Shown here: piece by piece, positions 45 to 47,263 of the stretch | How positions within the stretch are numbered: position 1 is the stretch's first letter | How the letters are laid out: every line of letters begins with the position of its first letter | Assembly (NCBI GenBank): GCA_935421135.1 | Contig: OW285194.1 | Span: forward strand, 3,095,501-3,159,500 | Length of the DNA: 64,000 nucleotides | Source of the DNA: Bugulina stolonifera | Taxonomy: Eukaryota; Bryozoa; Gymnolaemata; Cheilostomatida; Bugulidae | Direction: 5' to 3' | Translations under genes and position numbers: made by a program | Notes under the pieces: generated by a model | Told to the model about the DNA's origin: nothing | The model's input: only the letters and a program-made list of their open reading frames with translations | Database searches by the model: none

Positions 45-1466
45 TGTAAAGAATGCCGGATGAGCTGCCACTTTTAAGGCAGCACCACCTGGATACCTTC
101 ACCGCTATATTGACTTACAAAGGTACAGTCAGCTTGCCACTTTTAAGGCAGGCTTGACTAGTCCCTTTGTACCTGCCGGCTCCCTGCCAAGTATTAGCCT
201 GCTAGCCGGCTGTGTACCGGCTAATGTCCTGCAATGTACCGGCTAATGTATTATTATGTTAACCACAAACAATCAAGTGTCAGCTTGATGCCGGTTGACT
301 TCTAATTAATCTGTGAAGTGAATGCCTGCCAAGTGTCCAAGTGTATAGTGCTGTTTATTGTGACAAAAGAGGCAGAGCAGAACATCTGCTCTGCTTAGAG
401 CAGAACATCTGCTCTGCTTATATAGCAGGGCCGTAGCGCCCTAAGAAATGTTGGTGGGGCCAAAATATTAGGCCGGGGGTCCAGGGGGCCGCCTAGGCCC
501 CCTGGCGGGGTCCGGGGCAGCGCCCCGGCCACCGGCGCCCTGAGAGTGTTTTTCATAAAAATAGAGCAAATTTGAAGCAGTTCAGGCTTATGAAATATAA
601 CTGTGTAATAACATTAAATATAACCCAGCCTCATACATATATATGCATGTACATGTATACATTGTATCTGTTCACAATTATGACTGAACATAAATCATTC
701 AACTCTAACGACATTTACAAATACTTTACTCCTTTACAATGATGAAAATCATGCAATGAAATGAAGTAGAGCTAACGAATCTACAAAAAGCAGCTGAAAG
801 CATGTTTTTTTTCTTACCATATATATATATTTCTTATTTCTCCCTATGAGATTGAATGCCTAAGTAAATATATTGAAAACAATGTAGGGCAGACAGATAG
901 CCGAATCCAAAAAAGTTTGTTCAATTGAAAACTAATATAATTGTTTAGATTTTCAAGGTTTATATTAATCTTAACACACCCAGTACATGGACTGTGTATA
1001 CGGTACCTCTTATACTGTATACTAAAATAATCTTCAAATTTAGAGTTATCTCCCCTGACAGGTTTTCAATATCTAAAATGTTACATAACTGCAGTTAAGT
1101 ACGGTAGTATTTAGAATTTTCTGATATAAAAGTGTTTAGCACACTTATTATCACCATATCCTTACATATCTTGTAAACCCCGCAAATAGGAAAGTGGAAG
1201 AAACTTTAAACACCTATCTGACCATGATAATAAATTGACTAGACTTCGACTTTGCAATGCTAAAAGTTGAGACGGCCAGGCCGCACGGCCGTATAGGGCA
1301 CTACGGCCCTGTTATATAGCATAGCAAAGACCAAAGGTCAATAGATATCGGCATGCACATGCATATACATGTAGAATATGGAGACACAGGTTATTGGCAT
1401 ACTAGGTATATGCATACAGAATTATGTGTGTAATATAATGTTATTATAGAATGTAGAATATCATAG
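45..1466 (-). mobile_element. Old solo LTR of Ty3/Gypsy family A, reversed and interrupted (main part)
   Basis: Read on the minus strand this matches the 580-bp LTR at 1467-2046, starting at its 3' end (TGTAAAG at 45) and running to its 5' end, with scattered substitutions such as CCGGATGAG for CCGGGTGAG. The last 21 bases of this LTR lie at 18073-18093, beyond the younger retrotransposon that inserted into it. GGGT at 41-44 and GGGT at 18094-18097 are the 4-bp target duplication. No internal retroelement sequence remains, so this is a solo LTR left by LTR-LTR recombination. It is also split by a hAT-type element at 426-1311. The TATA-proximal palindrome is duplicated near 374-420. Confidence 0.88.
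426..1311. mobile_element. Non-autonomous hAT-type DNA transposon (886 bp)
   Basis: The terminal inverted repeats are CAGGGCCGTAGCGCCCTA at the left and its near-perfect complement (TAGGGCACTACGGCCCTG) at the right. They are flanked by a perfect 8-bp duplication TTATATAG (418-425 and 1312-1319). Removing the insert restores the LTR sequence. An 8-bp duplication with CAG...CTG ends is typical of the hAT superfamily. No open reading frame of note is present, so it would need a transposase in trans. The left end is very GC-rich (470-540) with a foldback at about 481-505; the middle is AT-rich. Confidence 0.85.
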
Positions 1467-1696
1467 TGTGGTGGATTTTGACACTAGCTATGATATTCTA
1501 CATTTTATAATATTATATTACACACATAATTCTGTATGCATATACCTAGTATGCCAATAACCTGTGTCTCCATATTCTACATGTAAATGCATGTGCCAAT
1601 AATTTGTATCATTATGCTTTTATACTGATGCCGGCTTGGAATGTTGTATTAGTCAGCCGGTATCTACTGACCTTTGGTCTTTGCTATGCTATATAA

Positions 1697-1719
1697 GCAG
1701 AGCAGATGTTCTGCTCTGC
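1697..1719 (+). promoter_or_regulatory. Perfect palindrome between TATA box and AATAAA in the LTR
   Basis: Arms GCAGAGCAGA and TCTGCTCTGC are exact complements around the loop TGT. It starts at the last base of the TATA box, so it overlaps or closely precedes the expected transcript start. It could fold in the RNA or bind a dimeric factor in the DNA. The old solo LTR has it twice in tandem. Confidence 0.7.
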
Positions 1720-1938
1720 CTCTTTTGTCACAATAAACAGCACTATACACTTGGACACTTGGCAGGCATTCACTTCACAGATTAATTAGCAGTCAACCGG
1801 CATCAAGCTGACACTTGATTGTTTGTGGTTAACATAATACTACATTAGCCGGTACATTGCAGGGCATTAGCCGGTACACAACCGGCTAGCAGGCTAATAC
1901 TTGGCAGGGAGCCGGCAGGTACAAAGGGACTAGTCAAG

Positions 1939-2027
1939 CCTGCCTTAAAAGTGGCAAGCTGACTGTACCTTTGTAAGTCGGTATAGCGGTGAAGGTATCC
2001 AGGTGGTGCTGCCTTAAAAGTGGCAGC
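1939..2027 (+). repeat. Two TTAAAAGT-loop hairpins in the 5' LTR
   Basis: 1939-1958 has stem TGCC/GGCA and 2008-2027 has stem GCTGCC/GGCAGC, both around the 8-nt loop TTAAAAGT. The same pair occurs in the 3' LTR and, reversed, in the old solo LTR (64-83 and 133-153). Confidence 0.85.
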
Positions 2028-2046
2028 TCACCCGGCATCCTTTACA

Positions 2047-2066
2047 TTGGTGGCAGCAGTGGGATA
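2047..2066 (+). promoter_or_regulatory. Primer-binding site of element A
   Basis: Starts directly at the LTR end. TGGTGGCAGCAGTGGGAT is the complement of a tRNA 3' end including CCA. From memory, animal tRNA-Leu (AAG type) ends with AATCCCACCGCTGCCA, which fits with one mismatch here and exactly in the second retroelement at 47244-47263. Leu as the primer is therefore likely. Confidence 0.75.
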
Positions 2067-2120
2067 CAGAGAATCCCAATTGCTATACCGACTCAAGGCA
2101 CACTGAATGGCACAACGCAG

Positions 2121-2241
2121 GCTGTCTTAAAAGTGACAGCAACGCGGTGTGGCACCTAGCGTAGTCCCCGGACACTACTTGGGCTGTCTTAAAAGTGACA
2201 GCTGGGTAGGAGGCTCGTATAAGCTGTCTTAAAAGTGACAG
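2121..2241 (+). repeat. Three TTAAAAGT-loop hairpins in the untranslated leader
   Basis: Copies at 2121-2140, 2183-2202 and 2224-2241 have stems GCTGTC/GACAGC (the last CTGTC/GACAG). Relative to other copies a C-G pair is replaced by a T-A pair on both arms at once, while the loop is unchanged. They lie between the primer-binding site and the gag start, where packaging and dimerisation signals of retroelements usually sit. Confidence 0.88.
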
Positions 2242-2330
2242 TCAAGCGGGTTTAGAACCGAGGACTGGCTCTGTAGATACAGTGGGCCTATTCAAGGAAG
2301 TAATAATCAGGTTACAGCCATAGACAATAA

Positions 2331-3215
2331 ATGGCTAATCGGAGAGCGAGGAGTGCTGACAGAGGAGGTGACCGGCTGGCAGATGTCTTAGAAAGAATAT
2401 TAGCCGAGCCCAGGCACCCAGCACCAGTCCACCAGTTCAAGGCTCCCCAGTTTGAAGGGAAAGGGGATGTGGAATACTTCGTCACTAGGTTTGATGAGGT
2501 TACCGAGGCTAATGAATGGGGACCTGCTGCTGCACTGTTACATCTCAGAGAGGCCCTGAAGGAAAATGCCCAGGACTGTGGGAGAGCCGCAAATGTGCAA
2601 GCTGTATACACCGCTCTACGAGCTCAGTTTGGGCTTTCTCCTAGGGAAGCCAGAACGCGGCTGAGCACTCTCCGTAAAGACTATAGAACACCCTTACAGG
2701 AGCATGCCATGGAAGTGGAGCGGCTGGTTAGTGTAGCATACGAGGAGCTGCCAGATGGGCATCAAGCTGGTTTAGCACTAGACACCTTTTGCAGCACTCT
2801 GGGTCATGCCGCTCTACAGAGACACCTGTTGGCTGTTCCTACACCTACTCTGGGAGATGCTGTTAGGGCTGGAAATGAGTTCCTACAAGTACGAACAAGC
2901 TATGAGAAAGGGTCTGGCGCAGTTGTCCGAAGGGTGGATGACGAGGAACTTGGAGAAGAGGGGGTATCCGGTGCCACAGGAAAGGTGCTAACCACTCTAA
3001 TGGAAACCATGCAGAAGCTGGTGGAGAAAGTAGAGCTACTGCAAGCCAGGCCCGCAGCCCAAGCACCCAGGAGACGAAAAGAGGTTCCGGTTCAGAAGGC
3101 AGGTTGTTGGGGATGTGGCAAGGAAGGCCACCTCAGAAGGGACTGCCCCACCAATACTTGGTCCAAGCCCCAAGAAGCTTCTGCTCAGGGAAACGGGCGG
3201 AGCCCGCAACAGTAG
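2331..3215 (+). CDS. gag: Gag protein of element A
   Basis: A 294-aa capsid/nucleocapsid protein that would assemble the cytoplasmic particle and bind the element's RNA. The capsid-like part (about residues 40-190) is clearly homologous to the Gag of the second retroelement at 46013-46873, sharing motifs such as LHLREALK, EARxxL, LQEHA and LQRHLLA. A single CCHC zinc knuckle is visible: C259-x2-C262-x4-H267-x4-C272. The start at 2331 is the first ATG after the hairpin-rich leader. The pol frame opens at 3104 and overlaps the gag end by 112 nt in the -1 frame, so pol is probably made by -1 frameshifting. No stop interrupts gag, consistent with a young copy. Confidence 0.92.
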   Translation: MANRRARSADRGGDRLADVLERILAEPRHPAPVHQFKAPQFEGKGDVEYFVTRFDEVTEANEWGPAAALLHLREALKENAQDCGRAANVQAVYTALRAQFGLSPREARTRLSTLRKDYRTPLQEHAMEVERLVSVAYEELPDGHQAGLALDTFCSTLGHAALQRHLLAVPTPTLGDAVRAGNEFLQVRTSYEKGSGAVVRRVDDEELGEEGVSGATGKVLTTLMETMQKLVEKVELLQARPAAQAPRRRKEVPVQKAGCWGCGKEGHLRRDCPTNTWSKPQEASAQGNGRSPQQ

Positions 3216-3725
3216 TGCCTTCTACTGGTTGCATTAGGGCACCTAGACACCAAAAACATAAAGGCAAGACCAAACTAAGCTGGCAGGGAGAGTCGGCTAC
3301 CCAGACAGTGGAGGGTTGGAGGCATTCTCGACGGACTAGCCCACCACCGGAAGTGGAGACCCCCTCAGGTGCACTGACGAGCAACTACTTCCAACCTCTT
3401 ATGGTAGAGGATGAAGAACATTATCACCAAGTGCCACACACCCAGGAGCTTCCTGAAAAATGGAGGCCAGCGGTGGGCACACATGGCGGAAGGTCACCAT
3501 CAAAACAGGCTGTGGTGCCTGCCTTAAAAGTGGCAGGGCACAGTGAGGGGTGTAGAAGGCCGACACCTGCCTTAAAAGCGGCAGGACGGCCTCAAGACGT
3601 ACTAGGCCACTCCTGTATAGACGAACCGACTTACCTCGGAGACGGGCAACCGTTGGCAGCTAACAGAGTGCCAACTAGGAGTCCCACAGTAGAGGAGTCA
3701 GAGGAGACAACAGTACAGGTTTTAA
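3104..3725 (+). CDS. pol: Pol N-terminal linker of element A (5' part, before the insertion)
   Basis: An open frame that overlaps the end of gag and leads toward protease. It carries no recognised domain and is rich in Pro, Thr and charged residues. It contains two ALK(V/A)A peptides encoded by TTAAAAGT hairpins (3518-3537 and 3566-3585). The frame is cut at TTAA 3722-3725 by the Kolobok-like insert. Across the two TTAA copies the frame is in register with the protease frame at 10962, so pol was uninterrupted before insertion. The apparent continuation of this frame to 3850 is transposon sequence. Confidence 0.8.
3518..3585 (+). repeat. Two TTAAAAG(T/C)-loop hairpins in the gag-pol linker
   Basis: 3518-3537 (stem CCTGCC/GGCAGG) and 3566-3585 (same stem, loop TTAAAAGC). 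Both are read in frame as PALKVAG or PALKAAG. Confidence 0.85.
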
Positions 3726-4131
3726 AGGGGTCAGGAAATGATATTTTTTTATTTTGTATACCTAAATATTATCTCCTTGAGAACCTATTACTGCCTGACA
3801 AAAAAAAATTTAAAAAATGTGCAGTGATTTGGAAGAAACAAGAAAGATAATAAAATGTGCGTGGTTTCACTTTCACTTTCAAACGGAAATAGAAATTTAG
3901 AGGGGCGGTGTCTGCCACCGGTCTGACGTAACGAGGCCGAGCCAATGAAATGCGGTGTGTAGCCCAGGATCTCGGCTTTATTCAAATGAAGGGACTCATT
4001 ACCAGCTTTCAAACCAAGCTTTCAAAAAAAATCTTTCATCCCGCAGCTATGAGTTTCCTGTTGCAGCCATCAAACATAAAAATGGCAAAGAGATTGTTAG
4101 CAATTATTGTAATGTTGGATCTCACGACAGC

Positions 4132-5134
4132 ATGTCTTGCCAGATGGGGCATTCACCTTCATCAGACTCATCCAGTGATACTACTAGTGAAGTCTACAGT
4201 ACAACTAGAGATTGGGACAAACAGCCAAGGGTGAAAAGGGTTAGACAGCAAAATCCCGTGACTGACCATGAACAAGACAGAGACGGTGGTAGACATGTAA
4301 GACTTATTAAAATTGATCATATTATTTGTGTGGTAAAATAAATATAATATAGTTCTCAGCATGCTTGCGTTCAAACTCAGCTAAAAATTAGCATACAAAC
4401 ATTTATTTTCTTTGTCAAAATATGTACATGTATAATGAAATATCAATATTAAAACAAGAATTGTATTAATGTAAATATAATATTCAATTATAAGTTGTAC
4501 CAAATATTATATTACACCCATTTATTCAGGACAACCAAGGTTATATACCGCCACTAGTAGAAGATTGGTGTACTTGTGGCAAATGTCACGCCTGGCCACA
4601 GGAAGACATGAACACCTGCTGTAAAGATCACTCAATATGGGACACAAGGGTAGATGGTGAAGATATTAGTTGCATTACTCTTTCAAACGACATAGCTGAT
4701 CTCCTACAACCTGCTCCTCTAAGAGTGATGTACAGGAACTACTGTTCTCAACACCGTAAGTGGGAGTTAAAATTGAAAAAACTTTTTATAGCTATGACAT
4801 ACTTTTGCATCACATTATATTACTTTTTCGTTGCAACTAAATTATATTTTTTTGTGTTACAGCTCAACGATATCCTGATGCCGACACATTGCAGCCATCA
4901 TTCAGGTGGACAGAGGCAGCTATAAAAGAGTTGAAAAGTAAACAAATGAGACTAGCTGCCTATAGAATGTTGATATTCTATGCATATCCTAATATTAAAC
5001 GTAGGGAAAGAAAGGCTTTGCCTTCCTGCATTTACGCTATGATTAGAGCTACCTATATGCCTACAGAAACAGAAGAAGAGTTTGCTGACCATGATTTTTC
5101 TGTATACATTCCTGAATGCGATGACGACAATTAA
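4132..5134 (+). CDS. P2X7-type intracellular (ballast) domain protein encoded by the Kolobok-like element
   Basis: Three exons: 4132-4296, 4530-4755 and 4863-5134, joined at GTAAG donors and (T)CAG/ACAG acceptors, giving 220 aa with all phases consistent. Residues 1-55 are Ser/Asp/Thr-rich and probably disordered. From residue 68 a cysteine cluster follows (W68, C69, C71, C74, C85, C86, C103). The last exon holds RLAAYRMLIFYAY and the ALPSCIYAMIRATYMP segment, which resemble the zinc-binding C-terminal domain of the P2X7 receptor. No channel segments are present, so it is not an ion channel. Stand-alone copies of this domain are common in invertebrates; its role in a transposon is unknown, possibly zinc-dependent DNA, RNA or protein binding. 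The start at 4132 is the first in-frame ATG; an upstream noncoding or coding exon cannot be excluded. Confidence 0.8.
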
Positions 5135-5276
5135 TCAATTCACATTCATAATTTTTATCGGTATAACAGTATGTATATTGATTGTACTATGTGGTTGACA
5201 ATATAATATAGTTGCATTAGCAGTCATGAAATTGTTGTCTGCATTTTAATTGTGAAATTAACAGTTTCTCGAGACA

Positions 5277-8200
5277 TTATTGTTTCCTATCGCCACCACT
5301 ATTCCTTCTACCACGCCTACCACCACTATTCCTTCTACCACGTCCACCACCACTTGTAGCATCGTCCTGTTGATTTACATAGTGTGGCTTTCTCACCAAG
5401 CCTCTCCTCCTGGTTTCCATCTCTTTCTCAAGTTCATCTAGGCTGTGATATGGTTTTGCTGTTGATGCCATTGTCTGTGGTTGATGGTCAGGACAAGCTG
5501 GCTGTACTCCATCATTCACACATTTAGTCAAGTATTGGAAGAGCTCATCTATATATTCTGTAATAATTTAGCATCAAGTTAAAATACATGGATAGAATAG
5601 AATAGGATTAAAATTGCAGCAGTGGCAAACATGCTCAATAAAGTAACATTCAGGGCAAACTGAAAGGAATGCCAATATATATATATGTACTGTGTATATT
5701 CATGTAAACAAATCCAGATACACAATAATAGCACTTACTATATGTGGGGTCAGCTCGAACATATTGCACTGTAGGGATCAGCTTGGTGGCCTTGGATCTC
5801 CTCACCCTTCGCCATGGTTTACCTTCTGCAGTCAGCTTGATGGAACGCTGGCAGTTTTCGTTGTGGTGCATGATAGTAAGCTGTATTCTGAAACAAACAA
5901 CACCCAGATAGTTTAAATAATACTGTAATGAACAGAAAAATCTTACACAACATATACATGCAAGCATGCAGCATGTGATAAAGAATAACAAAATAATACT
6001 GAATGATGTTTTACCTGGATAATATTCCAGAATAAGAAAAGCTCTCCATTTTTGGGGCGTTTCGATTAATGGCACTGTGGAACCCTTCTAACTCTGAGGT
6101 AGATGTAGCGCTAGCCATCCCGATAGCATCTAGCAATCTCTGGTTTAATAGTATCTTTCGTACTTCCACATCTAACATAGACTCTAAACAGATATAAATT
6201 TTCAAATTAAATTTTTTGAGCATCTGAAGTTTGACCTGCAGGGAACTGGGGAAATGCATATTACAGGTAAATGCATGTTACTACTATACCTGGTTTAATG
6301 TAGTCCACGAACCAGACTTCCCCATCTTCATCAGTAAATTCCCCTTCCCCATCTGCATGAATACAACGTGGGAATGCTACCAACTCATGCTGGTGGATGT
6401 CGCAGATGTGGTTAGCTGCGGACATCCACCAGTCTCGTCTTAGCTCACCAGGAGCTGTGTTTCCTACCACATGGTACAAGTGGTTGACCAGTGCAGGGAT
6501 CCATTTTAAGATTGGCCTGTAGCCAACCTTCTGATTTCCCAGTTTAGCTAGTTTTTTTTGTAACCCTGAAAATTTAGGCATAAATGATCAATTTATTTGT
6601 CAGCACTTGGAAACTTGATGCTCATTCACCATGACAACAACATACATTGTGCATGTAGTTAATAAAGTATAACACAGAAGGACCCAAAATAGACACGATA
6701 TGATCATTTATGTAAACATTTGTAAGGCAAATTTTCATATTTACATGTATACACATGCTGAAGAAAAGCAATAAATCATTTGGATTAAACTCAAATACCT
6801 TTTGCTATATGCCAGGTATCAAATTGATGCTTGACTGCTGGCCAGTGGTCCCTCATGTAAGCCTTGATGCTAATGTGCTGATCCGTTGTGAGAGTAGCAA
6901 CTTCCAGGCTTAGTTTGGTTGTTTCCTCTCTACACCTCTTCAACCCTTCAAGCTCCATCGCAGCAGAAGAAGTGGCTTCTGTACACTATGATTACAATAG
7001 AAATCACTAATATATCTTGAACATACATGTACATGTACACTGCAAGACTGTGTGTAATTATAATTCTTAGACTTCATCTTACCTTTATGAGACAAGATGA
7101 AACTATTTTGCTAGTTTCAGCATCCATGAGACTGTACACAGCATACATGGCTGAATGACCAGGAGAGTCATAGCGCCCATCTCCGTTCAGGGTCAATGGC
7201 CGAGCTATAGAGGAAACTAGTTCACTTTGCTGGTTATTGTAGATGTGCCTAATTGCCTGTTAAAAACAAACAGGTATAAATACCCATCCCTAAATGTGCT
7301 CAATGTCTAATGAACATCTATTGCATACAACCGTACCGTGCTATTGTATATTTAAAGGCAGTAAGTATAGTATGTATGCACAATCATGTAGTTGCCACAC
7401 TAGGTACATTATACATATAGCTTACATGCACATACCTATACAATCTACAGGCGTGTATAGAAAATATTATATCTATAAGTTAGAATTTTTAATACATACA
7501 CCGTTCAAATATCCTTTTTGATAATTGAAGAAGGTTCGATCACTGAAGACTTTGAGATTAATAAACCTCAAAGCACGAAGGAACTTCCTAGGTAGCAGAC
7601 CAGCAAACAATATGGAACTTGCGATAGACATGTTGATCAATGGCAACCTTTCACGCACATCCGAATTCTGCCAGATTCTAGTATTGCCACAAGCAACACA
7701 CGTTGAGTTGAATGCAATCATGGCACCCATCTCATGGTGCTGAGTTGTATCGCAATTGCCAGCACACTTTGCGCAAACTTGAAGAAGCTCCATTAGCCGA
7801 TCATGGGTCACAATGTATTTAGCCTCTTTAAAGAAACATTGCCTACAACAATGATCATACATGTAACTAAATATATACATGTATATGTAGTTGACATTAA
7901 TATCAGAGATATCCTGTTGCATATAAACAAAGCAGACATAGCAGACACACATAGGGTTTACAGTAGTATGTTTCTACATGTAGATAAAAATACACTTACT
8001 GGTTGCCTCAGAAACAGATGAATGGTAAAGATAGAATTGTTCACAATACCAGAGGCTTACCTCACTTTATAAACTTCAGAGTTCTCAACCTGCTCTTCAT
8101 CAAACTTTATGGCATCATCTTCATCGGCTGCCCACTCTTCCTCAGAATCTGAATCCTGGAAGACAGCAATAAAAAGGTTACATGAAATATTTGGAACTAC

Positions 8201-10464
8201 TGTTGTCTTGTGAACTAGGCTTTTTGCCCTTATTTGTACAGGCTAGCATCATGATATTTACTGAAAACTACTATCTTCAGCACCTCACCTGCATTTACAC
8301 ATAGAATTTAGTACATTGTAATTATTACATAAGTGTATCCATGAAAGTAATTAGTACCTTTATGTACACAAAGAATTTAGTACATAGTGTAAGCCTACAT
8401 TGTCATTGTTACATAAGTGTACCCATGAAAGTAATTAGTACCTTTATGTACACAAAGAATTTGGTAAATTTGTGTTAACTTAGTAACTATTACATAAGTG
8501 TAGGCCAACAGAAAGTAATTATTACATAAGTGTACACATAGTAATTAGTACTTTACCGTTGATGGACTGGAGCTGCTCAATTTGGAAGGAGATTTCTGAA
8601 TTGTTTTAGAGCTGGTCAATATAGAAGCAGTGACAGCACTAGAAGTAGTTGAAGTACATGTCGTTGTAGTCATAGCAACATTAGTGACATTAGTGGTAGT
8701 GATCGTAGTGGTAGTGCTAGTCAGGGTAGTAGTGAAGGTAAGAGCTCTAGTAGCAGCAGTTGTACTGGGGATTGGAGTTTCCATGGGTTTGGACATAATT
8801 TGCAAGCTTTTAGAAGTGCACCTAAGCCCATCTATGCCAGTGCTAAAAATATACAATCATAGAATAGTAAACAATAATATAATATGAAAAATTCCAAACT
8901 TCAAACACTATAATACAATGTATAGTAACTATAAAGATTTTACATACATTTTACTCTCAGTCTGAGTTGCTTCAGATCGGAACCGTGGCTTGTCTTGGTT
9001 TATAAAGCTGTGCTCCATATGTGTACCTAAAAGTGATATGCACCATTATCTTAAGACAAAAGCATTTTGATATGATGTTTCCAAATGATCTTTCAAAATA
9101 TTGAACTTTTGCCAAAATCTACGTAGGCCCTATATACACGTATATAATGTTTACTAAAGCTATATGTTGGTACTGAAGATTCTAGACTGACATGTGCAGG
9201 ACAATTCACAATTCACAATATGGCATTGCCAATAAAAGCATAAACTACAACTTACTCGAGTTCGCCATGACGACTGGTCTTCCAGTGGCTATAGATATTC
9301 GGCCTGGCCTAATGTTTGCTAGTGAGTTGCTAGTTGGTTTAACTCTGGCAACATCCTCGCCACTATCCACACTACTAATTCTAGCATCACCACCTAAAGG
9401 GGATGCTAAGTCATCTAATCTCTCCTCATCCACATTTCGTTGACGTGATGTCCCAGCTGTCGATTGCTTCACCTTTTTGCCAGTTGGTCTGCAATGATTT
9501 GCAACTATATTAGATAAACATGTTGCGAGGGCTGGAATAAGATGACAGAACAAGCGAAATGTGTGCCCATACAGATTTTCCATGCCAGCAATTTAATTTT
9601 TATCAATTCGAATTAAAGTCCAGTATCAGCTCTAATTTTCAAAATTCACTAGGAGTAAGTACGTACTCATCGCTATCATCGTTGTCATTATTATCATTCA
9701 AGAGCTGACGTATAATGCTCTTTCGTTGTCTTTTAGAAGGAGTCGGCGTGAAGTTCTTCTGGCGTGGTGTTTTATCCTCTTGTGTAGCCCGAGCATTTGA
9801 TGGAATTGAACCTGGTATCAATCTCAGCCTAAAATAAATAACCAGTAGTTCGATAAATGAAAAAGAACAATTACCTTTGAATCTGCAAAACAGCCAAAAA
9901 TATTTGGCAGTGTGTTGCAGGGAACTGCACAAAACACTTGAATTTTTATGTAGCAGTATTATAAACAGATAGCCAGGCATATGAAAAATCTTTTAGCATA
10001 GCAGAACAGCAGACTACAATTCCCATCATAGATTTCTATCGCATGAACAAATAAATCATAACATTATCCTAACCTCTACACTCATGCTGAATGTTCCAAT
10101 GAAAAATATTGCAGTAGTCACTTGTAATAAAAATCGAGGAGATATCTGCAAATGAGATAGATGATTCTGACTTAGTTCTATTTTAATTTTCATTCTGATT
10201 TTCATTTTGTGGTATCAGAAAAACAACCTACCTTATTTTGTCATCCTTCATCAGTCTGTATTGGTGATAGTTACTAAAGTCGTCAGGTTTGAAATGTCTG
10301 AAACATAGCCTAGAATCTGCACTGAGATTAACCTCTTTTTGGTGAATCTTGAGGAATCTCACCCACTTTTCCCTCAAATATGGGTCTGTAGGAAATCTTT
10401 GTAGGTGTTCAGCACCATCGCAAAATGCAGCAGAACAGTACCTGGTTTTACCGTGACTAGCCAT
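5277..10464 (-). CDS. THAP-domain DDE transposase, Kolobok-like (13 exons)
   Basis: Exons (minus strand): 10464-10232, 9828-9667, 9488-9256, 9026-8948, 8842-8557, 8155-8061, 7842-7500, 7256-7083, 6985-6799, 6565-6290, 6183-6015, 5887-5739, 5557-5277. All splice phases agree and give 888 aa with no internal stop, so the gene looks intact. Exon 1 is a THAP zinc finger: C10, C15, C54, H57 with W34 and F24-P25; it would bind the transposon ends. Exons 2-6 encode a Thr/Ser/Asp-rich linker. Exon 7 has a CxxC-type cysteine cluster. The catalytic region has GDGRYDSPGH (exon 8), TDQH with DTWHIAKG (exon 9) and SELEGFHSAINRNAPK (exon 11), the expected acidic triad neighbourhoods of this family. The C-terminus is a Gly/Arg-rich tail. 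Exon boundaries are from splice consensus only. Confidence 0.85.
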
Positions 10465-10961
10465 CGAGAAGTGTTAATAAAAATGCTCCTTGCTTCAAGC
10501 TAGGCTATCGCTATAATGAGCTTTGCTTTGGAAAGCTGAATTCACAAAATTAAAATTAATTTCAATCTGAGAAATTGCAACAAGCATCCAGCTGTAAACT
10601 GAAAGCTTTTATTAGTCTTGACTTAGTTGTTGACATTATGAGTATTGGGTACTGCTGGTATTGGCTACCACCCGCAATCCAAGCTAGGATTTCAGCTAAT
10701 TCAAACGCGGCACTTCATTGGCTGATTGCCGCCAATACCTTTATACGCAGTAGTTTCCACTCTGTATCCACAGTAACAGAGTAAACAAGATCCACATCCG
10801 TTTTAATTCAATATGGCCGATTATGGATTGATAATGTTTTTTTATCTGCTGGTAATAAGCATGCCTGTCAATATTATGTTTATTTTGTTGAATAATATAA
10901 AAATTAACTACATAATACATAGAATGCTGCATTTAAACCTGTGGTTTCAGTAGTACTTTAA

Positions 10962-13900
10962 ACAAGCCCTATGCAACCAGTTACTTCCTCCCAGGAAGAC
11001 TGGAGGGTAAGCCAGTGCAGTTTCTGGTGGACACAGGCTGCACGACCAACTTATTATCCAAACAAGTGTTTGACAAGCTTCCAGGTCGGGTGAAAGACAG
11101 TCTGGAAGAAAGTGACTCTCACGGTATAATGGCCGATGGTACACAGCTGCCGTTCTATGGTGTGTTGAGGCTGCCACTCAGGATTCGGGACATAAAGACA
11201 GAGGAGGTCTTTGCAGTGAGTCGCATCAATGAGGATGCCATATTGGGCATGCCTTTTCTGATGGCGCACAATTGTTCCATGGAGTTCAACCAGCCCATAG
11301 TGCAAGTAGACGGAAGAAAGCTGAAGTGTACTGACCGACATGGCCGGCTGCTAATGAGCAGCATCCAAGTCACAAGAGAGACGGTGATTCCACCCCAGGC
11401 TGAGATGGCAGTGCAATGCCGGCTCACCACCAGGAACTATTGTCCGGTTGGACTGATAGAAGGGCAGGCAGGTAGACTGCCCATCGCTACTAGCTTGAAC
11501 AAGCCCGGGGACCATGGCAAAGTAGTAGCTAGATGTCTGAACTTCACTAGTCAACCTATGATGCTGAAAGCAGGATCGGCGATTGGTACCTTCACAGGAG
11601 TGGAGGAGGAGCAAGTAGATGACTCCCAGCCATTAAGTGACAGTAGTGTGACAGACTTCAAGAACATCCCAGCTGTGGATGGAAAGGTGCCAGAGCACCT
11701 TGAGTCGCTGTATGAAACAGCAAAAGGAAACTGCAGTGGACCAGGGCAAGCCTGGAAGTTAGCACGGCTGCTAACTGACTACGGTGCTGTGTTCAGTACC
11801 GGGGATGGAGACGTCGGACGGACCACATTGGTGGAGCATAGCATACCGGTGGAGACCGGTACCCGACCCATCCGTCAGCCTCCTCATCGGCTTGGGCCAG
11901 AAAAGGAAGCGGAGGCTGAAAGACAAGTACAAGATTTACTTGAGAAGGGATTGATCGAACCTGCTGGAGGTGCCTGGAGCGCCCCGGTTGTCCTAGTGAG
12001 GAAGAAAGATGGAAACTGGCGTTTCTGCGTTGACTATAGGAGGCTGAATGCCGTTACTGAACAGGATGCCTATCCACTTCCACGGATTGATGACAGCCTG
12101 GATGCGCTGTCGGGAAGCAGATATTTCAGCACCCTTGACCTAGTTAGTGGTTATTGGCAAGTCCCGCTAGATGCCGATGCCCAAGAGAAGTCTGCCTTTG
12201 CCACTCGCTCTGGACTGTGGAAGTGGAAGGTGTTGCCATTTGGGTTGACCTCAGCCCCAGCTACTTTTCAAAGACTCATGGAACGAGTTTTGCATGGGCT
12301 GCACTGGAAGAGCTTGTTACTATACCTGGATGATATTATAGTCATAGCTCCGGACTTTGAGACCCACCTTCAACGGCTAGAAGAAGTGTTCAAGCGCCTA
12401 CAGCAAGCTGGACTGAAGCTGAAGCCATCCAAGTGTGAGCTACTGCAACCAGAAGTACGATATTTGGGTCACATAGTCAGTGAGAATGGGGTTGCAACCG
12501 ATCCCGAGAAGGTAGCTGCCGTCCGGGACTGGCCTAGGCCAACCGGAGTCAAAGAATTGCAAGCCTTCCTTGGAACAGTGGGCTATTACAGACAGTATCT
12601 CCCCGACTTTGCCACTACAGCTCAACCACTTCACAGACTCACCAGCAAAGGGGTGGACTGGACTTGGACTGAACAGGAGCAGATGTCTTTCGAGAAGTTG
12701 AAACAGAGGTTGACTTCAGCACCAGTCCTAGGATATCCAGATCCTACTCAGACCTACATCCTGGACACGGATGCCAGTGGAGTCGGAGTGGGTGCTGTCC
12801 TGTCCCAGGTACAAAATGGATTGGAGAGGGTCATAGCCTACTATAGCAAAACCCTGGCTCCGCCGGAAAGAAACTACTGTGTAACCAGAAGAGAATTGCT
12901 GGCGATTGTGAAGGCAATCAAACACTTTCGCCCATATCTCTATGGTCAGAAGTTCCGGCTACGAACTGATCACGCTTCTCTGCGATGGCTATGTAGACGC
13001 AGAGAACCTTCCAACCAGGTTGCCCGCTGGTTGGAAATTCTGGCAGAGTTCCAGTACACTTTAGAGCACAGAGCTGGACCCAAACATGGTAACGCTGATG
13101 GACTCAGCAGGCAGATTTGTGAGAACTGTAGACAATGTGAGCTGATCGAGAGCAGAGATGGTGGACCCACTCGAGAGGAACTCGACAGGGAGCACCTGGA
13201 ACCTGCCTTAAAAGCGGCAGGGTCCCAACAATCTGTCATATCTGGGTTGGCCTCTGCCTTAAAAGTGGCAGAGGAGGATCCTGACCAGCCAATGTCAAGG
13301 TGGGGTTCCACATCATCTTTTGGAGAGATGAAGCACACTGACCATGGGTGTCTACCTGCCTTAGAAGTGGCAGGGGAAGTCACTAACCTGTCAGTGAATG
13401 CAGACCACTCACCTGATGCCGCTGCTAAGATTGTCACCAGGAGTACCCAGTTAGATGCTGAGTTGGTCAAAGAACAGACTACTGGGTCAGGAGCTGTAGC
13501 GACTATGTACAGAGCTCTACAAGACAGGTCTGAATTGACAGATGAGCAATTAGAACTTGGAGATGCTGAACTAAAAAGACTACACAGCCAACGAGATTCT
13601 TTGAGGATTCGACCTGATGGTGTGTTAGAAGCTAGAGTGGCTCCACAAGGCAAGCCCCGGTGGTGTGCCGTTTGCCCACCAGCGCTCAGGAACAGTGTGA
13701 TATGGAAGACTCATGCAATGACTCATTCTGGAGTGAACAAGACTCTGTGGCGGCTCCAATTGACATGGTATTGGCCAGGGATGACTACCCACGTCAGAGG
13801 CATAGTCAGGAGCTGTGAGGTCTGCCAAGCATCCAAGCATGGTGGACATAAGGCTCCTGGAGGAAGACGGAGGTTGTATGCTGGCCGCCCATGGCAAAAA

Positions 13901-16042
13901 GTGGCAGTAGACCTGGTCGGCCCCCTGCCAGAGACATCAAGAGGAAACCGGTGGATCCTTGTTCTGGTTGACCACTTCACAAGGTGGCAGGATGCATTGG
14001 CCATCCCTGATGCTACTGCCCCAGTGGTGGCTTCCACACTGGATGAGAGAGTTTTCTGCTATATGGGCTTGCCTGAACAGATCCACACAGACCAAGGGGC
14101 TCAGTTTGAGTCTCAGCTAATGACCGAGCTCTGTCAACTTTGGGGGGTGGACAAGACACGTACCACACCATACCACCCAGAAGCCAATGGTGTGGTAGAA
14201 CGCAACAACAGAGGTCTGGGAGACTCACTAAGAGCATTATTGTTGAGGAGAGGACAGGATGAATGGGACATGCTCCTGCCCCAGTTGATGAGAGCCTACC
14301 GGGGAACTCCCCACTCCGTCACTGGTGAGACAGCAAATATGTTGATGTTGGGTAGAGAACTACGCTTGCCCGACCAGTTGCAGCACCAACCACCCCCAGA
14401 AGACTTCTGCCCTCAGCATGAGTTTGTGGTGTCAATGAGAGAGAGACTGGAACAGGCCCATGAGGCATTAAGGCAGCAACAAACACAAACTCGACAGGGT
14501 GATCAGGAAGAGCCTCCGCTGTTTGCACCAGGGGATTTGGTATGGCTGCAGAACAAAAGAAGACGGCGGGGAGACAACAGCAAATTGCAACAGAAGTTTG
14601 TGGGACCCTACGAGGTGGTGGAAGCCTATAACAACCATACATATAAGATTGAGAGACAAGGGCAATTATCCATACAGAATGAATCTAGACTTAAACTCCA
14701 CTACCCCTGTCTGGAAGAACTTGGAAAAGCTCCTGCTACTCTGGAGCCACGAAGAAGGCCTAACATGAGAGGCACCCTCCGGCCAAGAAGGGAGGAAGCC
14801 GGACCAAATGGCTCGGAATTACTTGCACTCCCAGATATGATACAAAACAGGGAGCCACATGAGGTTGTTCCCCCTGCTCCCAATCAGCAGCCAGTAGAAA
14901 GAGCTCCACTCACCGAAGTTTTACCTGCACCAGGAACCAAGTTAGGGCCACCCCAACTGACAGAGATGCCTGAGGAACCCTCTTTGGAGAAACCAGTAGG
15001 ACCGAGACGGTCAACCCGTCTAGCCGCCAGATGGCCAACTAGATACCAGCCAGAGGAACCATATTTAAAGCCCAAAGTACCCAAAGGGTGGAAACCTGAG
15101 TTCCAACAGACCCCTTGCAAAAAACAGCTAGCTTCTAGGATCCATAGTCTAGGAGATATAAGGGTTATAACACAAACACCCAAGGAGCTGTTTTGTGAGG
15201 ATGCTATACTGCCATCTAGATACCTGCCAGAGGAACAACAGTTAGAGCCCATGGCATCCAGAGGAAGAAAGACTGTGTTCCAGCAAACACCCTGCAAAAA
15301 ACAGCTAGTTTCTAAAGCTAATAGTCTGGGAGATATGAAGGTTGTAAATGAAAGAACAAAGGAACTATTTTCTAAGGAGGGGGAATGCTGCCAGGAAGTT
15401 GGTGATTGGTCTCATTTCCTGCAGCCATCTTGGGAAGGTTCACATAGTGAGTTGACAAGAGAAAGACTTGTATTACTTAAATCCAAGCCATCTGTGATCC
15501 AAGTTCACTACACATCACCTGAAATGGACCCAAACCAACCTTCAGACCTTACTACTGCAGGAGGTGAGTCTGATGATTCTCTGACACAGATTCTAGAAGA
15601 CTTACCAAAATATTTAGATAGCCCTTTTATTATTGAGAGTCAACAGCAATTGTTGGAGGAGAGTGACAATGACTGTCTGCTAGAGTCAGAGGAAGAGGTT
15701 GACACTGCCTTAAAAGTGGCAGTACAACTTAGCCAACCACCTCAGGGGGAGTCTTGGCCTATAGAACATGGGCCCCAGAATACCAAAACACCAAGAAGGG
15801 GGGGTCAGTCACCCAGTGCTGCCCTAAAAGTGGTAGCTGGTGAAACTGTCCATCCTGCCTTAAAAGTGGCAGAGAAAGCAGTTGTAGTGAGCTCAAGTCA
15901 GGTCAAACAAACCAACAGTCTTGCTTCTAGGGTGCCGTACAAGGAGGACTATGTACACAGCCCCCCCCCCCGAGTCCTCAGCCCAGCTTCAGGGACTGAG
16001 GGTGTTGGACCCAAGCCGGGGGATGGAACCCAGGGAAGATAA
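10962..16042 (+). CDS. pol: Pol polyprotein of element A: protease, reverse transcriptase, RNase H, integrase
   Basis: The open frame after the insertion; residue numbers here count from codon 11015. Protease: FLVDTGCTTNLLS (residues 3-15) with ILGMPFL near 77-83. Reverse transcriptase: D375 in STLDLVSGYW and YLDDII with D439/D440. RNase H: ILDTDAS with D584. Integrase: an HHCC zinc-binding region (THAMTHSG ... SCEVCQ), then catalytic D966, D1026 and E1062 with 35 residues between the last two, then a GPY/F module (KFVGPYEVVEAYNNHTYKI). No stop interrupts these domains. After about residue 1230 comes a roughly 400-aa Pro/Glu/Lys-rich tail with an internal duplication (15100-15190 against 15275-15365) and several ALKVA peptides. 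It ends beyond an 11-C run that separates it from ORF3 by one reading frame. Catalytically it looks competent, but the Kolobok insertion separates it from gag. Confidence 0.93.
13202..13374 (+). repeat. Three TTAAAAGT-loop hairpins between RNase H and integrase
   Basis: 13202-13221 (CCTGCC/GGCAGG, loop TTAAAAGC), 13251-13274 (8-bp stem CCTCTGCC/GGCAGAGG) and 13355-13374 (loop TTAGAAGT). They encode PALKAAG, SALKVAEE and PALEVAG. Confidence 0.85.
15100..15369 (+). repeat. Internal tandem duplication in the pol tail
   Basis: Two diverged copies about 175 bp apart (15100-15194 and 15275-15369) encode FQQTPCKKQLASR and FQQTPCKKQLVSK followed by NSLGD/HSLGD and KELF motifs. The duplicated unit lies C-terminal to integrase and has no known function. 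Confidence 0.75.
15704..15872 (+). repeat. Three TTAAAAGT-loop hairpins in the pol tail
   Basis: 15704-15723 (ACTGCC/GGCAGT, outer pair changed on both arms), 15818-15837 (GCTGCC/GGTAGC, one G-T wobble, loop CTAAAAGT) and 15855-15872 (CTGCC/GGCAG). All are read as ALKV. Confidence 0.85.
15961..15971 (+). repeat. C11 homopolymer where the pol frame and ORF3 frame meet
   Basis: Eleven C residues. Pol continues past it for 24 codons to a stop at 16042, whereas the ORF3 frame (one base further on) is open through it. Loss of a single C would fuse pol to ORF3, so this is a candidate slippage site or a one-base mutation. Confidence 0.6.
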
Positions 16043-17159
16043 CATGGAATCATTGGTTTTGATCGAGAATCAAGATTGGTTTAAGGACCTGTGTTTAAGT
16101 GATTCCAGTGATAGTGAGACAAAGGGTGCTGTACCCCCAGGACATGACCTCGAGTGTATTGGGCCGGCTAGGAGCCGAACCGAAGCCCTAGGCCCACCTG
16201 CCTTAAAAGTGGCAGGTGGGTACTCAACCAGGAGAGCAGAACCTCCAGTCACTGAGGCTAGTAGCCAGAGATCCATCCTGCGAGACATTGAGCCAGCCGT
16301 TGTCAACAGAGTCTGCACTGACCATCTTTTTGCAGGTAGACGTATGGATGGGGACCAAGAACGGCTGGTTTCCTCACCAGGGAAGAGGATGGCAGCTATC
16401 TCCCCCATTAGGCCCCCCGTAGTCAAGCAGCTGAGAGTGGCGCTCACCCGGTTAAATGTTTCCCAACTAGACCTGCCATCTCCAGTACAACCCAGAGACA
16501 GAGAGAAGCCTTCTAAGAAGTCTAAACGTACACCCACTATCGAGTGGGTGGATAGGAGTACTAAGGATGAGGTGGAGAGGGCTCTTATGGGAGAGAACGC
16601 CTGTAAACTCTGTAGGTTCAGTACCAGTAAGAGGAGGATCAGGATCCACATCAGACAACACCTGTGTATGCACTACTGCAGCTGTGGATATCAACATCTC
16701 AGTCGAGATCAGATAGCTGAGCATCTCAAGGCTGGCAGACAAGCTGGGAGTCACACAGAGGAGGATCTGATCTACATGGTGGATGCACACCAGTTTCCGA
16801 GCTTCCTTAAGCATATGGGCTGGCCAGAGAGCAGGGAATTTGGGCCATGTGCCCCCTCGGAGCCTGCCGAATCGGACCAGGTCACTACCCGCCAGGCAAT
16901 GGAGGCATCGCCACTGACCAAGCAGCGGACCTCACAGACAGTTACTATTCAGCACAGGGAGAATTTGAGGCCGCTGACTGATGGTCCACCAACCCCCTGG
17001 AAGCTACCTCTTGGTTTTAAGATCCCGCGGAGGACGATCAGGAATGGACCGGAGCAAGAGAAGGTACCGAAAGAATATGGGCCTATACTAACCTCAGACT
17101 GGACGGATATGGCAGTCTCTGCAACCCGGCCCAGGACGCCAGAAGGTAAAAGAAAATGA
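16023..17159 (+). CDS. ORF3 of element A: zinc-finger protein in the env position
   Basis: Counted from the ATG at 16023 it is 378 aa; the frame is open upstream to 15921 and through the C11 run, so a pol fusion is possible. It overlaps the pol end by 20 nt. A C2H2 finger is visible (C194-x2-C197-x11-H209-x3-H213), followed by C219-x-C221 and H234, then a conserved VDAHQFPSFLKHM block. The same arrangement, with the same C2H2 spacing, occurs in the second retroelement's ORF (43206-44921), so it is a conserved component, not random sequence. There is no signal peptide or membrane segment, so it is not an envelope protein. It could bind the element's RNA or DNA or chromatin. An in-frame TGA (17157-17159) separates it from the coiled-coil ORF downstream. 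Confidence 0.78.
   Translation: MEPREDNMESLVLIENQDWFKDLCLSDSSDSETKGAVPPGHDLECIGPARSRTEALGPPALKVAGGYSTRRAEPPVTEASSQRSILRDIEPAVVNRVCTDHLFAGRRMDGDQERLVSSPGKRMAAISPIRPPVVKQLRVALTRLNVSQLDLPSPVQPRDREKPSKKSKRTPTIEWVDRSTKDEVERALMGENACKLCRFSTSKRRIRIHIRQHLCMHYCSCGYQHLSRDQIAEHLKAGRQAGSHTEEDLIYMVDAHQFPSFLKHMGWPESREFGPCAPSEPAESDQVTTRQAMEASPLTKQRTSQTVTIQHRENLRPLTDGPPTPWKLPLGFKIPRRTIRNGPEQEKVPKEYGPILTSDWTDMAVSATRPRTPEGKRK
16193..16220 (+). repeat. TTAAAAGT hairpin with a perfect 10-bp stem in ORF3
   Basis: CCCACCTGCC and GGCAGGTGGG are exact complements around TTAAAAGT. It is the longest stem of the set, and is read in frame as PPALKVAGG. Confidence 0.85.
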
Positions 17160-17210
17160 CACACCACTACCCAGCCTAGCCTGCTAGTCGTTGAGACAGG
17201 GAACAGAAGT

Positions 17211-17450
17211 ATGGTATTGAGACGGCTCTTGGGATGTCAGCCCCCCAGTGAAGGGATCCTGAAGAGACGACTGAGGAGGAAGGCGTTACTGGTTAGGGAC
17301 GCGGACGAGCTGGAGGAGAAGGCATGCCAGATAGATAGCACCAGGCGACAGAGGAACGTAGCAGCCAGCGAAGATGTAGAGTTGAAGGCAGAGGCTGAGC
17401 ATCTGCGGACTGAGTCAGCCCGGCTCAAGGCCCTGGCACAACAAGAATAG
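17211..17450 (+). CDS. Coiled-coil ORF at the 3' end of element A
   Basis: A 79-aa frame rich in Arg, Glu, Leu and Ala with a heptad-like pattern (LEEKACQID ... LKAEAEHLRTESARLKALA). It is in the same frame as ORF3, and the 51 bp between the ORF3 TGA and this ATG contain no other stop. In the second retroelement the zinc finger and a comparable coiled-coil tail are one uninterrupted protein, so this is probably the C-terminal part of ORF3, cut off by a stop or read through. It ends 38 bp before the 3' LTR. Confidence 0.6.
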   Translation: MVLRRLLGCQPPSEGILKRRLRRKALLVRDADELEEKACQIDSTRRQRNVAASEDVELKAEAEHLRTESARLKALAQQE

Positions 17451-17477
17451 TATTAGTGAGACCCCTGGCCCACTAAT

Positions 17478-17486
17478 GGGAGGGAG
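17478..17486 (+). promoter_or_regulatory. Polypurine tract of element A
   Basis: GGGAGGGAG lies two bases before the 3' LTR, the position where plus-strand DNA synthesis is primed in LTR retrotransposons. Confidence 0.7.
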
Positions 17487-17488
17487 TG

Positions 17489-18068
17489 TGTGGTGGATTT
17501 TGACACTAGCTATGATATTCTACATTTTATAATATTATATTACACACATAATTCTGTATGCATATACCTAGTATGCCAATAACCTGTGTCTCCATATTCT
17601 ACATGTAAATGCATGTGCCAATAATTTGTATCATTATGCTTTTATACTGATGCCGGCTTGGAATGTTGTATTAGTCAGCCGGTATCTACTGACCTTTGGT
17701 CTTTGCTATGCTATATAAGCAGAGCAGATGTTCTGCTCTGCCTCTTTTGTCACAATAAACAGCACTATACACTTGGACACTTGGCAGGCATTCACTTCAC
17801 AGATTAATTAGCAGTCAACCGGCATCAAGCTGACACTTGATTGTTTGTGGTTAACATAATACTACATTAGCCGGTACATTGCAGGGCATTAGCCGGTACA
17901 CAACCGGCTAGCAGGCTAATACTTGGCAGGGAGCCGGCAGGTACAAAGGGACTAGTCAAGCCTGCCTTAAAAGTGGCAAGCTGACTGTACCTTTGTAAGT
18001 CGGTATAGCGGTGAAGGTATCCAGGTGGTGCTGCCTTAAAAGTGGCAGCTCACCCGGCATCCTTTACA
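17489..18068 (+). repeat. 3' LTR of element A
   Basis: The 580-bp direct repeat of 1467-2046; no mismatch was seen. TATA box at 17711-17719, AATAAA at 17754-17759, and TTAAAAGT hairpins at 17961-17980 and 18030-18049. It is preceded by the purine tract GGGAGGGAG. Confidence 0.93.
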
Positions 18069-18072
18069 ATAG

Positions 18073-18093
18073 CTAGTGTCAAAATCCACCACA
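18073..18093 (-). mobile_element. Terminal 21 bp of the old solo LTR
   Basis: The sequence CTAGTGTCAAAATCCACCACA is the reverse complement of the first 21 bases of the LTR at 1467. It completes the solo LTR that begins at 45. It is followed by GGGT, the duplicate of 41-44. Confidence 0.88.
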
Positions 18094-18830
18094 GGGTAAT
18101 GGCACACTCCAGTTTATATACACATGAATAATAGCATACAAGGTGACTCTGTTATATCTATACTATACTATCATGTGTTGATACCTAAATAAACATCAGA
18201 TAGAAATTACATCTATTATAGGCTATAACTACTGACAGAGTAGTATAGAATATACAATATACCTAGTGTGTGTATGTCTAGTATTACATGATACAAGCTC
18301 CAATCCAGGAATACAAACTCATATTTGTTCGAGAATCACCTCCTGCCTTGGTTCTGTGGCTGAGTACAGTCTATGAGTGTGATGTAGGGGGAGGGGAGGG
18401 AGGTACCCGACTTCACCCTGCAATCATATAAGTGCAAGTAGGCAATATACAGCATATTTTTGTTCAAAGTGATTGTTGTTGTGGACAGGTTTACTGTGAT
18501 ATTAACTAATTTACAAACATTTCCCAACTAAATATCCTATAATTCACTAGAAATATCATTATCATTACACAATACTTTAACATGTATCATAATTATAATA
18601 TAATATAGTCTATATCTTCTTGAATGAAGCCTTATTGCTACAGATTGGAGTTATCACCCCTCCAATTATGCAACAATATGGGAAGACGACTACCCAACAA
18701 CAGAAAGTACCCATGAAGCCCATACTAAGTACATGTAGCTGTATTGTATACATTATGGTTACAGACTTGCCAATCCTCTATTAAGCAAGAACTATCACTT
18801 ATACCAATATACATGTACATTGTAATTTGA

Positions 18831-44921: not shown

Positions 44922-45062
44922 CCGGACGTAGGAGGGTCTACCTTTTGAACCTCTGCCCCAGTCGGGCGGCGGGAATATCGGGTGCTGGAAATAGTCGACA
45001 GCACCTTCCTCGAGGCGGTTTGTGCCTTGTCTACGCTCCTGGATGCGCGGCTTTTTAGCCTG

Positions 45063-45908: not shown

Positions 45909-46012
45909 TGTTTTAGAAGGGGGGTCGGCCTTGCCGACCGGATACTTGGGACGGTCTTCCGAGATGGGAATGTGAGAGGTGCGAGGAACTTGTAGGGCCC
46001 GAGTGCCAGCCT

Positions 46013-47243: not shown

Positions 47244-47263
47244 AATCCCACCGCTGCCACCAA
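47244..47263 (-). promoter_or_regulatory. Primer-binding site of element B
   Basis: On the minus strand TTGGTGGCAGCGGTGGGATT follows the LTR directly. It is complementary to AATCCCACCGCTGCCA plus CCA, the 3' end I recall for tRNA-Leu (AAG). Confidence 0.8.

Follow-up and report, generated by a model that had tools for sequence, protein, structure and literature searches.

Why would a retrotransposon carry the same small hairpin many times over, in translated and untranslated sequence alike? The question is raised by a 64,000-nt stretch of the genome of the bryozoan Bugulina stolonifera (contig C8, positions 3095501-3159500, in an assembly of 235 Mb and 27 contigs), which we call the window and number from its first letter. 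At 1467-18068 it holds element A, a long terminal repeat (LTR) retrotransposon interrupted by some 7 kb of inserted sequence, in which a preliminary description had noticed a dispersed hairpin family. A belongs to the Ty3/Gypsy group: protease, reverse transcriptase (RT), RNase H and integrase (IN) follow in this order, gag encodes a zinc knuckle, the LTRs run from TG to CA, and a primer-binding site (PBS) adjoins the 5' LTR; the pol gene is split by the insert and was read as two halves, the protease scores below the Pfam cut-off, and the PBS was recognized by eye. All 16 hairpins that had been counted in A, and two more in an old solo LTR of the same family, were recovered in place. Those of A represent 14 distinct sites, all in sense orientation, plus the repeated LTR pair. 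The evidence gives good support to the view that their pairing is kept by selection; evenly poised is the further step, that they are recognition sites repeated along the genomic RNA, most likely for selective packaging, with Gag as candidate binder.

The hairpins have stems of 4-10 bp around a near-invariant UUAAAAGU loop. The core consists of six base pairs (TGYC...GRCA and two outer pairs) and an 8-nt loop, YUARAAGN, whose near-invariance was borne out: it is exact in 12 of A's 16 copies, and the others read TTAAAAGC (3572 and 13208), TTAGAAGT (13361) and CTAAAAGT (15824). Position 13364, in the third RNase H-IN linker hairpin, is an A in the other copies compared. When 44-nt segments were folded, extra pairs below the core were predicted in all 14 distinct copies. 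They follow a bulge, mismatch or internal loop in 13 of them and are continuous in the ORF3 copy, where the perfect 10-bp stem described at 16193 is indeed present; the sequences of these lower helices are unrelated between copies. Five of the 14 sites are untranslated (LTR and leader) and nine are coding, none of the latter inside any Pfam-matched domain. No hairpin of the family was seen in U3 of A's LTR or within the gag frame (2331-3215). Both LTR hairpins lie downstream of a TATA-like motif near 1690 and an AATAAA at 1732, found by eye in the 5' LTR, which places them in transcribed R/U5.

The stems had been said to vary in a paired way, and this was confirmed by covariation above that of shuffles among the copies, together with matched changes in relatives. 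Across the 14 distinct copies the outermost core pair is CG in six, GC in four and AU, GU or UA in one each, with one mismatch, which makes five standard pair types and 13 of 14 copies paired; another core pair is CG in 11 and UA in three. Two of the six core pairs are invariant and therefore uninformative. The covariation score was 0.344 against 0.122 ± 0.029 in shuffles, doubly changed cells numbered 10 against 3.1, and 97.6% of the cells were paired against 86.3%, in each case with 0 of 500 shuffles reaching the observed value. Sliding the partner by one to three columns left at most 69% paired. The core holds two G-T wobbles (2229, outermost; 15824, inner) where a single one had been claimed, as well as two C-A mismatches (1945/17967 and 15860). 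Flanks were also swapped: the matched 3' flanks gave a mean of -17.1 kcal/mol against -12.6 ± 0.7 for flanks exchanged among copies, and none of 20,000 swaps folded as well. With 4 bp held constant and flanks of 6, 10 or 16, the count was 0 of 20,000 each time (z -4.4, -6.2, -6.0), and with the 6-bp core held it was 45, 0 and 3 (z -3.0, -4.9, -3.9). Each outer helix is thus matched to its own partner, and the covariation points to intrastrand pairing.

The exact loop, TTAAAAGT, occurs 16 times in the window against 4.2 ± 2.2 in shuffles, a nearly fourfold excess reached by none of 100 shuffles; with one mismatch allowed the window shows no excess (106 vs 99.9; 30 of 100 shuffles had as many). 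A and the old LTR account for 14 of the 16 exact loops, on stems of 4-10 bp, and the two found elsewhere (24136 and 42056) have less than 3 bp of stem. Outside A and the old LTR, four loops with one mismatch and stems of 5-6 bp (23955, 48640, 51772 and 62905) look like chance. A covariance model trained on the 14 distinct copies, which themselves make up 14 of its 18 window matches, returned the 18 known copies at E 2.7e-9 to 5.6e-7, with the next match at E 0.19. Among hairpins of the remaining window, those of element B among them, the twelve most frequent loops all measure 3-4 nt. Rfam, searched over 1467-18068 up to E 1, gave one match, in the insert and below the gathering score, and none at the hairpins. 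Genome-wide, the strict pattern TGYCTTAAAAGTGRCA has 140 matches against one for a reversed control. Among the 100 listed of these 140 places, none pointed to spread into unrelated genes: 91 are no farther than 7.5 kb from an LTR match of A's family, five farther off were read and are family relics (96 in or near family sequence), and the other four make up two pairs spaced by 69 nt, as in the LTR. Single motif matches in bacterial genomes (10 contigs) and in IMG/VR (43 contigs) look like background. Absence of covariation and equal abundance elsewhere, the two outcomes on which the preliminary description had staked its reading, did not occur in comparable tests; as a whole that reading is partly supported, the repeated covarying structure being the part that stands.

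Nine copies with 96-100% RT identity, A included, are present in the genome. Where the fetched stretches cover the sites, the hairpins stand mostly at the same positions; in a few copies they are broken or missing, for example in the leader of C1:11.2 Mb and at LTR2 of C2:25257580. With matches under 93% and the decayed copy C3:589280 left out, the leader and two linkers have variable sites at 4 of 160 core positions against 86 of 976 outside (Fisher p 0.004). In U5 of 29 LTR copies, 3 of 40 core and 45 of 267 outside positions vary, and the decayed copy itself differs at 10 of 60 and 44 of 231, respectively. Six LTR pairs stand 6.47 kb apart and constitute a short, 6.5-kb subfamily, in which nothing of A's tail and ORF3 is matched apart from a short stretch ahead of the 3' LTR; the two of its copies read throughout have 10 hairpin sites each, against 14 in A. 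The same short stretch occurs in seven other copies, and the U5 parts of many LTRs are identical. Apart from it and from two adjoining fragments at C2:6127391-6127841 (85-88%), A's pol tail and ORF3 (15300-17450) are unique in the genome. A may have arisen by recent recombination, or it may be the parent from which the other copies derive by deletion.

The hairpin is absent from all four sister elements read in the same genome, which have 71-79% RT identity and LTR stretches 99-100% identical. No loop of at least 6 nt recurs in them more than twice, and the covariance model found nothing in them up to E 1. One sister, L134 (C4:16602900-16612600), contains the 9-mer CCGAC(T/A)CGG seven times on the sense strand, seemingly in more than one reading frame, and never on the opposite strand; Markov simulations yielded two at most. 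This is possibly another dispersed motif.

Coding copies are constrained in their codons as well. All nine are read in one frame and use GCC TTA AAA GTG GCA with one synonymous and four nonsynonymous departures in 45 codons; the product of the background codon-choice probabilities is about 10^-27, assuming independent copies. The statement that they always read ALK(V/A) holds for eight, the copy at 13361 reading ALEVA. That the peptide alone is insufficient was rightly seen: codon choice together with the untranslated copies rules out a purely peptide function.

Relatives outside the genome were read from protein, as pol homologues in a protein database (among the matches listed, 120 of 700 and 120 of 560). 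In a set of 122 proteins, which includes P0001 and P0003 of the window and leaves out ORF3, the pattern [AVT]L[KE][VA][AVT] occurs 34 times. In 30 of these the end residues are A-A, V-T or T-V, with which two pairs of the stem are preserved (ALK(V/A)A, VLK(V/A)T, TLK(V/A)V), and 23 of the 30 lie in six full-length carriers among the matches listed (P0004-P0008 and P0023, on ENA contigs of 6-12 kb). The four unmatched ones are A's own ALKVV, with its G-T wobble, and isolated cases in P0102, P0117 and P0121; P0005 also has ALKVS, and P0006 ALKGA, in the same linker. The +1-frame peptide occurs in none of the 122 proteins, and the antisense peptide twice, both times as VTFKV (P0075 and P0080). 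In 120 fragment proteins there are nine motif sites, the matched ones being P0140, P0143, P0144 and P0148 (ALKAA, same linker) and P0175 (ALEAA). This residue rule (A-A, V-T or T-V round LK[VA]) allows conserved RNA hairpins to be recognized from protein databases without DNA.

A test of five pairs, with the best codons chosen and seven relatives (the six carriers and P0140), found 125 of 155 pairs possible at 31 sites against 95.7 ± 4.2, 111 of 125 against 86.0 ± 3.7 at the 25 sites whose fifth residue is A, V, T or S, and 79 of 90 against 61.2 at 18 less related sites thinned by hand, with 0 of 20,000 shuffles as high each time, figures that are not formal probabilities because the relatives were picked for carrying the motif and the shuffles ignore kinship. 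With the residues outside the tested five taken by themselves, 7 of 20,000 shuffles were as high for the 25 sites and 26 for the 18. Compensatory pairing change among relatives is thus found at the protein level. At sites whose context, judged by eye, makes them look orthologous, the two sides vary together: TALKVAV in A stands against AALKVAA in P0004 and AALEVAA in P0006, AALKVVA in A (G-T) against STLKVVD in P0004, PALKVAE in A against SVLKVTE in both P0004 and P0006, and PALKVAG in ORF3 against PVLKVTG in P0006. BLAST pairs the ORF3 copy with a different hairpin of P0004 (LALKVAS), and homologues gain and lose whole linker blocks. In an RT-RNase H tree of 60 proteins, from which P0004 was left out for its short RT match, A, P0005, P0006 and P0007 form a clade (99/95) and P0008 and P0023 fall elsewhere, so the hairpin trait is either old and often lost or was gained more than once; the single site of P0023 may be chance.

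We propose that one Ty3/Gypsy lineage keeps an RNA stem-loop in many sense-RNA copies, in U5, the leader and poorly conserved coding linkers and tails, with selection acting on pairing and loop sequence and not on the peptide or a fixed stem sequence. The hairpins are equivalent, insensitive to position, multiple and specific in their loop, which suggests avidity binding: they would be equivalent sites of one RNA-binding protein, and their number would provide the avidity. The simplest candidate reader is Gag, with its zinc knuckle, which (or a host partner) might select and condense its own genomic RNA for packaging. ORF3, suggested earlier as a reader, is unlikely in this role, since the short subfamily keeps 10 hairpins without ORF3 in cis, and since ORF3-like domains turn up in relatives whose pol lacks the hairpin peptide. 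The 15-mer core of the PBS occurs at 251 places genome-wide and is exact in two of the four sister elements, so a tag of its own could help the element to recognize itself and would separate its RNA from the transcripts of close sisters in the same cell. That the hairpins are such a dispersed identity tag, read by the element's own Gag and securing self-specific packaging against sister elements of the same host cell, we put forward tentatively, as an idea falling somewhat short of probable.

Packaging through multiple dispersed RNA signals is reportedly realized in MS2 and parechovirus. As portrayed in one account of single-stranded RNA viruses (PMC6281560), such signals are many genomic stem-loops with a common motif, and this is what A has; A differs in being an LTR retrotransposon, in a loop almost invariant over 8 nt, and in that its recognition by the capsid protein is a conjecture. 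For yeast Ty1 and Ty3, passages of a review describe packaging structures as not clearly defined and a contribution of multiple scattered RNA sites as likely (PMC4974528), and according to another paper Ty3 needs its untranslated regions and POL sequence for localization and packaging (PMC11381356). Both are LTR retrotransposons like A, Ty3 being of the same superfamily, and scattered sites are suspected in them too; they differ in that these passages describe no repeated hairpin family and place the main cis-acting region at the 5' end. None of our literature searches turned up hairpins of this kind described for an LTR retrotransposon. If the hairpins are a packaging tag, the idea of dispersed packaging signals extends from RNA viruses to retrotransposons, and A would provide, to our knowledge, the first such system in an LTR retroelement, with a coevolution readable from proteins alone. 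In any case the hairpin names concrete candidate sites for the choice of own RNA, a process poorly defined in LTR retroelements and even in Ty1 and Ty3, and the sister elements of the same genome are natural negative controls.

Several observations weigh against this proposal. Among the 14 copies, doubly changed pairs (2 vs 1.5; 277 of 500 shuffles had as many) and further pair types (6 vs 4.7; 118 of 500) do not stand out from shuffles. The core's two G-T and two C-A do not split sense RNA from its complement, and mean fold energies are close (-18.8 sense, -17.2 antisense), nine of 14 copies folding better in sense and five in antisense. The relatives outside the genome are known from pol proteins alone, not DNA, and 9 of the 23 matched sites in them cannot form all five scored pairs; among the fragment homologues, four unmatched combinations (P0129, P0161, P0209 and P0236) stand beside the five matched. 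Finally, nt 429 to 4979 of yeast Ty3 are dispensable for retrotransposition with proteins supplied in trans, according to the above review (PMC4974528), so internal signals are no general need.

The same hairpin anatomy would also fit binding by a host or element protein at a stage ahead of packaging, in nuclear export of unspliced RNA, stability, localization or translational control, and copies in coding sequence are as compatible with export or localization as with packaging. A retrotransposon-encoded export protein does exist in Cer1 of C. elegans, where retroelement RNA is handled by a dedicated protein in CERV-dependent export (PMC10309623); no CERV-like gene is shown in A. ORF3, the sole accessory gene seen in A, is absent from the short subfamily, which keeps its hairpins. 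The export elements known from retroviruses and IAP each consist of one or a few local structures, and a need for 10-14 dispersed copies, as in A, would be unusual among them. We therefore regard an action before packaging as unlikely, though to be reckoned with.

Alternatively, the hairpins could be a functionless, self-propagating cassette that spread inside the element through template switching in reverse transcription. A near-identical 16-nt core in unrelated contexts, the common frame of all nine coding copies, the lack of the +1-frame peptide in 122 proteins and the gain and loss of linker blocks would all suit such a cassette, and the copies probably did arise by copying. As a full explanation the cassette, which the preliminary description had named as an option, is disfavoured, as the stems diverge in a paired way, the outer helices are co-adapted, V/T and T/V are swapped in relatives, the cores have fewer variable sites, and the listed genome copies belong to A's family. 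Without a function, hairpins would be expected to lose their pairing as they decay, as is seen at leader 1 of the relic L136 and at the first linker copy of the relic C3:589280. Rickettsia palindromic elements likewise sit in frame within genes, as A's coding copies do, but they are longer and spread over unrelated genes; A's hairpins, as far as checked, keep to a single element family and conserve their pairing. We consider a mere cassette improbable.

Still less probable are DNA palindromes, either sites of a dimeric DNA-binding protein or hairpins in single-stranded cDNA. Two copies lie in the LTR, G-T and C-A departures are equally common in the core, and single-stranded DNA hairpins would give the same covariation. 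However, a dimeric protein needs fixed half-sites, and A's stems change their sequence while staying paired; all copies have one orientation, and none was found in U3, the expected place of regulatory DNA sites. Between RNA and DNA, which had been left open, uniform orientation and transcribed position favour sense RNA, with wobble counts and fold energies deciding nothing. The array of Su(Hw) sites in Drosophila gypsy is also a repeated short motif in a Gypsy leader, but those are clustered DNA sites of fixed sequence, whereas A's hairpins are dispersed, partly coding and covarying. As for a repeated functional peptide ALKVA with the palindrome as a by-product of codon choice, the common frame and the recurrence in relatives fit it, but the leader and LTR copies already refute it as sole explanation, five untranslated copies having the same loop, and the codon choice described above and end residues that go A-A, V-T and T-V as base pairing demands make it hardly credible.

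Table 1. Features of element A and of the adjacent old solo LTR, in window coordinates
Feature	Position	Strand	Remarks
5' LTR of A	1467..2046	+	TG...CA, 580 bp; borders by eye
Primer-binding site	2048..2065	+	TGG...; by position and eye
gag	2331..3215	+	294 aa, one CCHC zinc knuckle
pol open frame	11015..16042	+	protease (below Pfam cut-off), RT, RNase H, integrase, long tail
ORF3	15921..17159	+	overlaps pol in A as separate frame
3' LTR of A	17489..18068	+	borders by eye; repeat pair with 5' LTR
Hairpin LTR1	1939..1958	+	TGCC/GGCA core, C-A mismatch, then AGC/GCT
Hairpin LTR2	2008..2027	+	GCTGCC/GGCAGC and lower helix
Hairpin leader 1	2121..2140	+	GCTGTC/GACAGC
Hairpin leader 2	2183..2202	+	GCTGTC/GACAGC
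Hairpin leader 3	2223..2242	+	GCTGTC/GACAGT, outer G-T
Hairpin gag-pol linker 1	3518..3537	+	PALKVAG
Hairpin gag-pol linker 2	3566..3585	+	PALKAAG; loop TTAAAAGC, GC-rich lower helix
Hairpin RNase H-IN linker 1	13202..13221	+	PALKAAG; loop TTAAAAGC
Hairpin RNase H-IN linker 2	13251..13274	+	SALKVAE; 8 bp
Hairpin RNase H-IN linker 3	13355..13374	+	PALEVAG; loop TTAGAAGT
Hairpin pol tail 1	15704..15723	+	TALKVAV; ACTGCC/GGCAGT
Hairpin pol tail 2	15818..15837	+	AALKVVA; G-T wobble, loop CTAAAAGT
Hairpin pol tail 3	15854..15873	+	PALKVAE; 5 bp then C-A
Hairpin in ORF3	16193..16220	+	PALKVAG; perfect 10 bp
Hairpin LTR1, 3' LTR copy	17961..17980	+	
Hairpin LTR2, 3' LTR copy	18030..18049	+	
Hairpin LTR1, old solo LTR	133..152	-	same family
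Hairpin LTR2, old solo LTR	64..83	-	same family

Three other roles were considered for the hairpins and rejected. The PBS and the 3' arm of hairpin LTR2 have GTGGCAGC in common, but capture of the primer tRNA is contradicted by the three leader copies, which have GACAG in all family copies read and so break the match. Long-range loop pairing would call for the full complement ACTTTTAA, which is absent from A; its two minus-strand matches are in the old LTR. For kissing loops the loop offers only a 4-nt A-U palindrome (UUAA), which is probably too weak.

The 3' LTR of A contains an exact repeat of the last 247 nt of the 5' LTR (Table 1). ORF3 is homologous to the C-terminal part of pol in P0004 (36% identity) and P0006 (34%), where it is continuous with pol. 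In BLAST among the pol homologues it matches 22 of 240 at E up to 0.01, and an ORF3-like domain also occurs in proteins whose pol is without the hairpin peptide, e.g., P0013, P0014, P0021, P0030 and P0037. A direct search of the protein database with ORF3 found nothing, probably because these homologues belong to pol proteins longer than its length filter admits. No Pfam match was obtained for ORF3; a zinc-finger-like stretch was noted by eye.

The insert that splits the start of pol from the rest is of low GC and runs from 3727 to before 11015; homology within the family ends near 3726, at its left edge. By eye, A is inserted near one end of the old solo LTR, which is reversed (1-1466 and 18069-18100), and ATAG on both flanks is the likely target duplication. 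The old LTR itself seems to hold an extra insert at about 430-1310. Elsewhere in the window, a second LTR-like element lies on the minus strand at 42403-47563; it has two identical repeats of 300 nt, and its protease frame contains a 96-nt tandem repeat. Tandem repeats of 33, 31 and 12 nt occur at 31784-34044 and 50957-51268, and one 33-nt array overlaps an open frame at 32889-33536.

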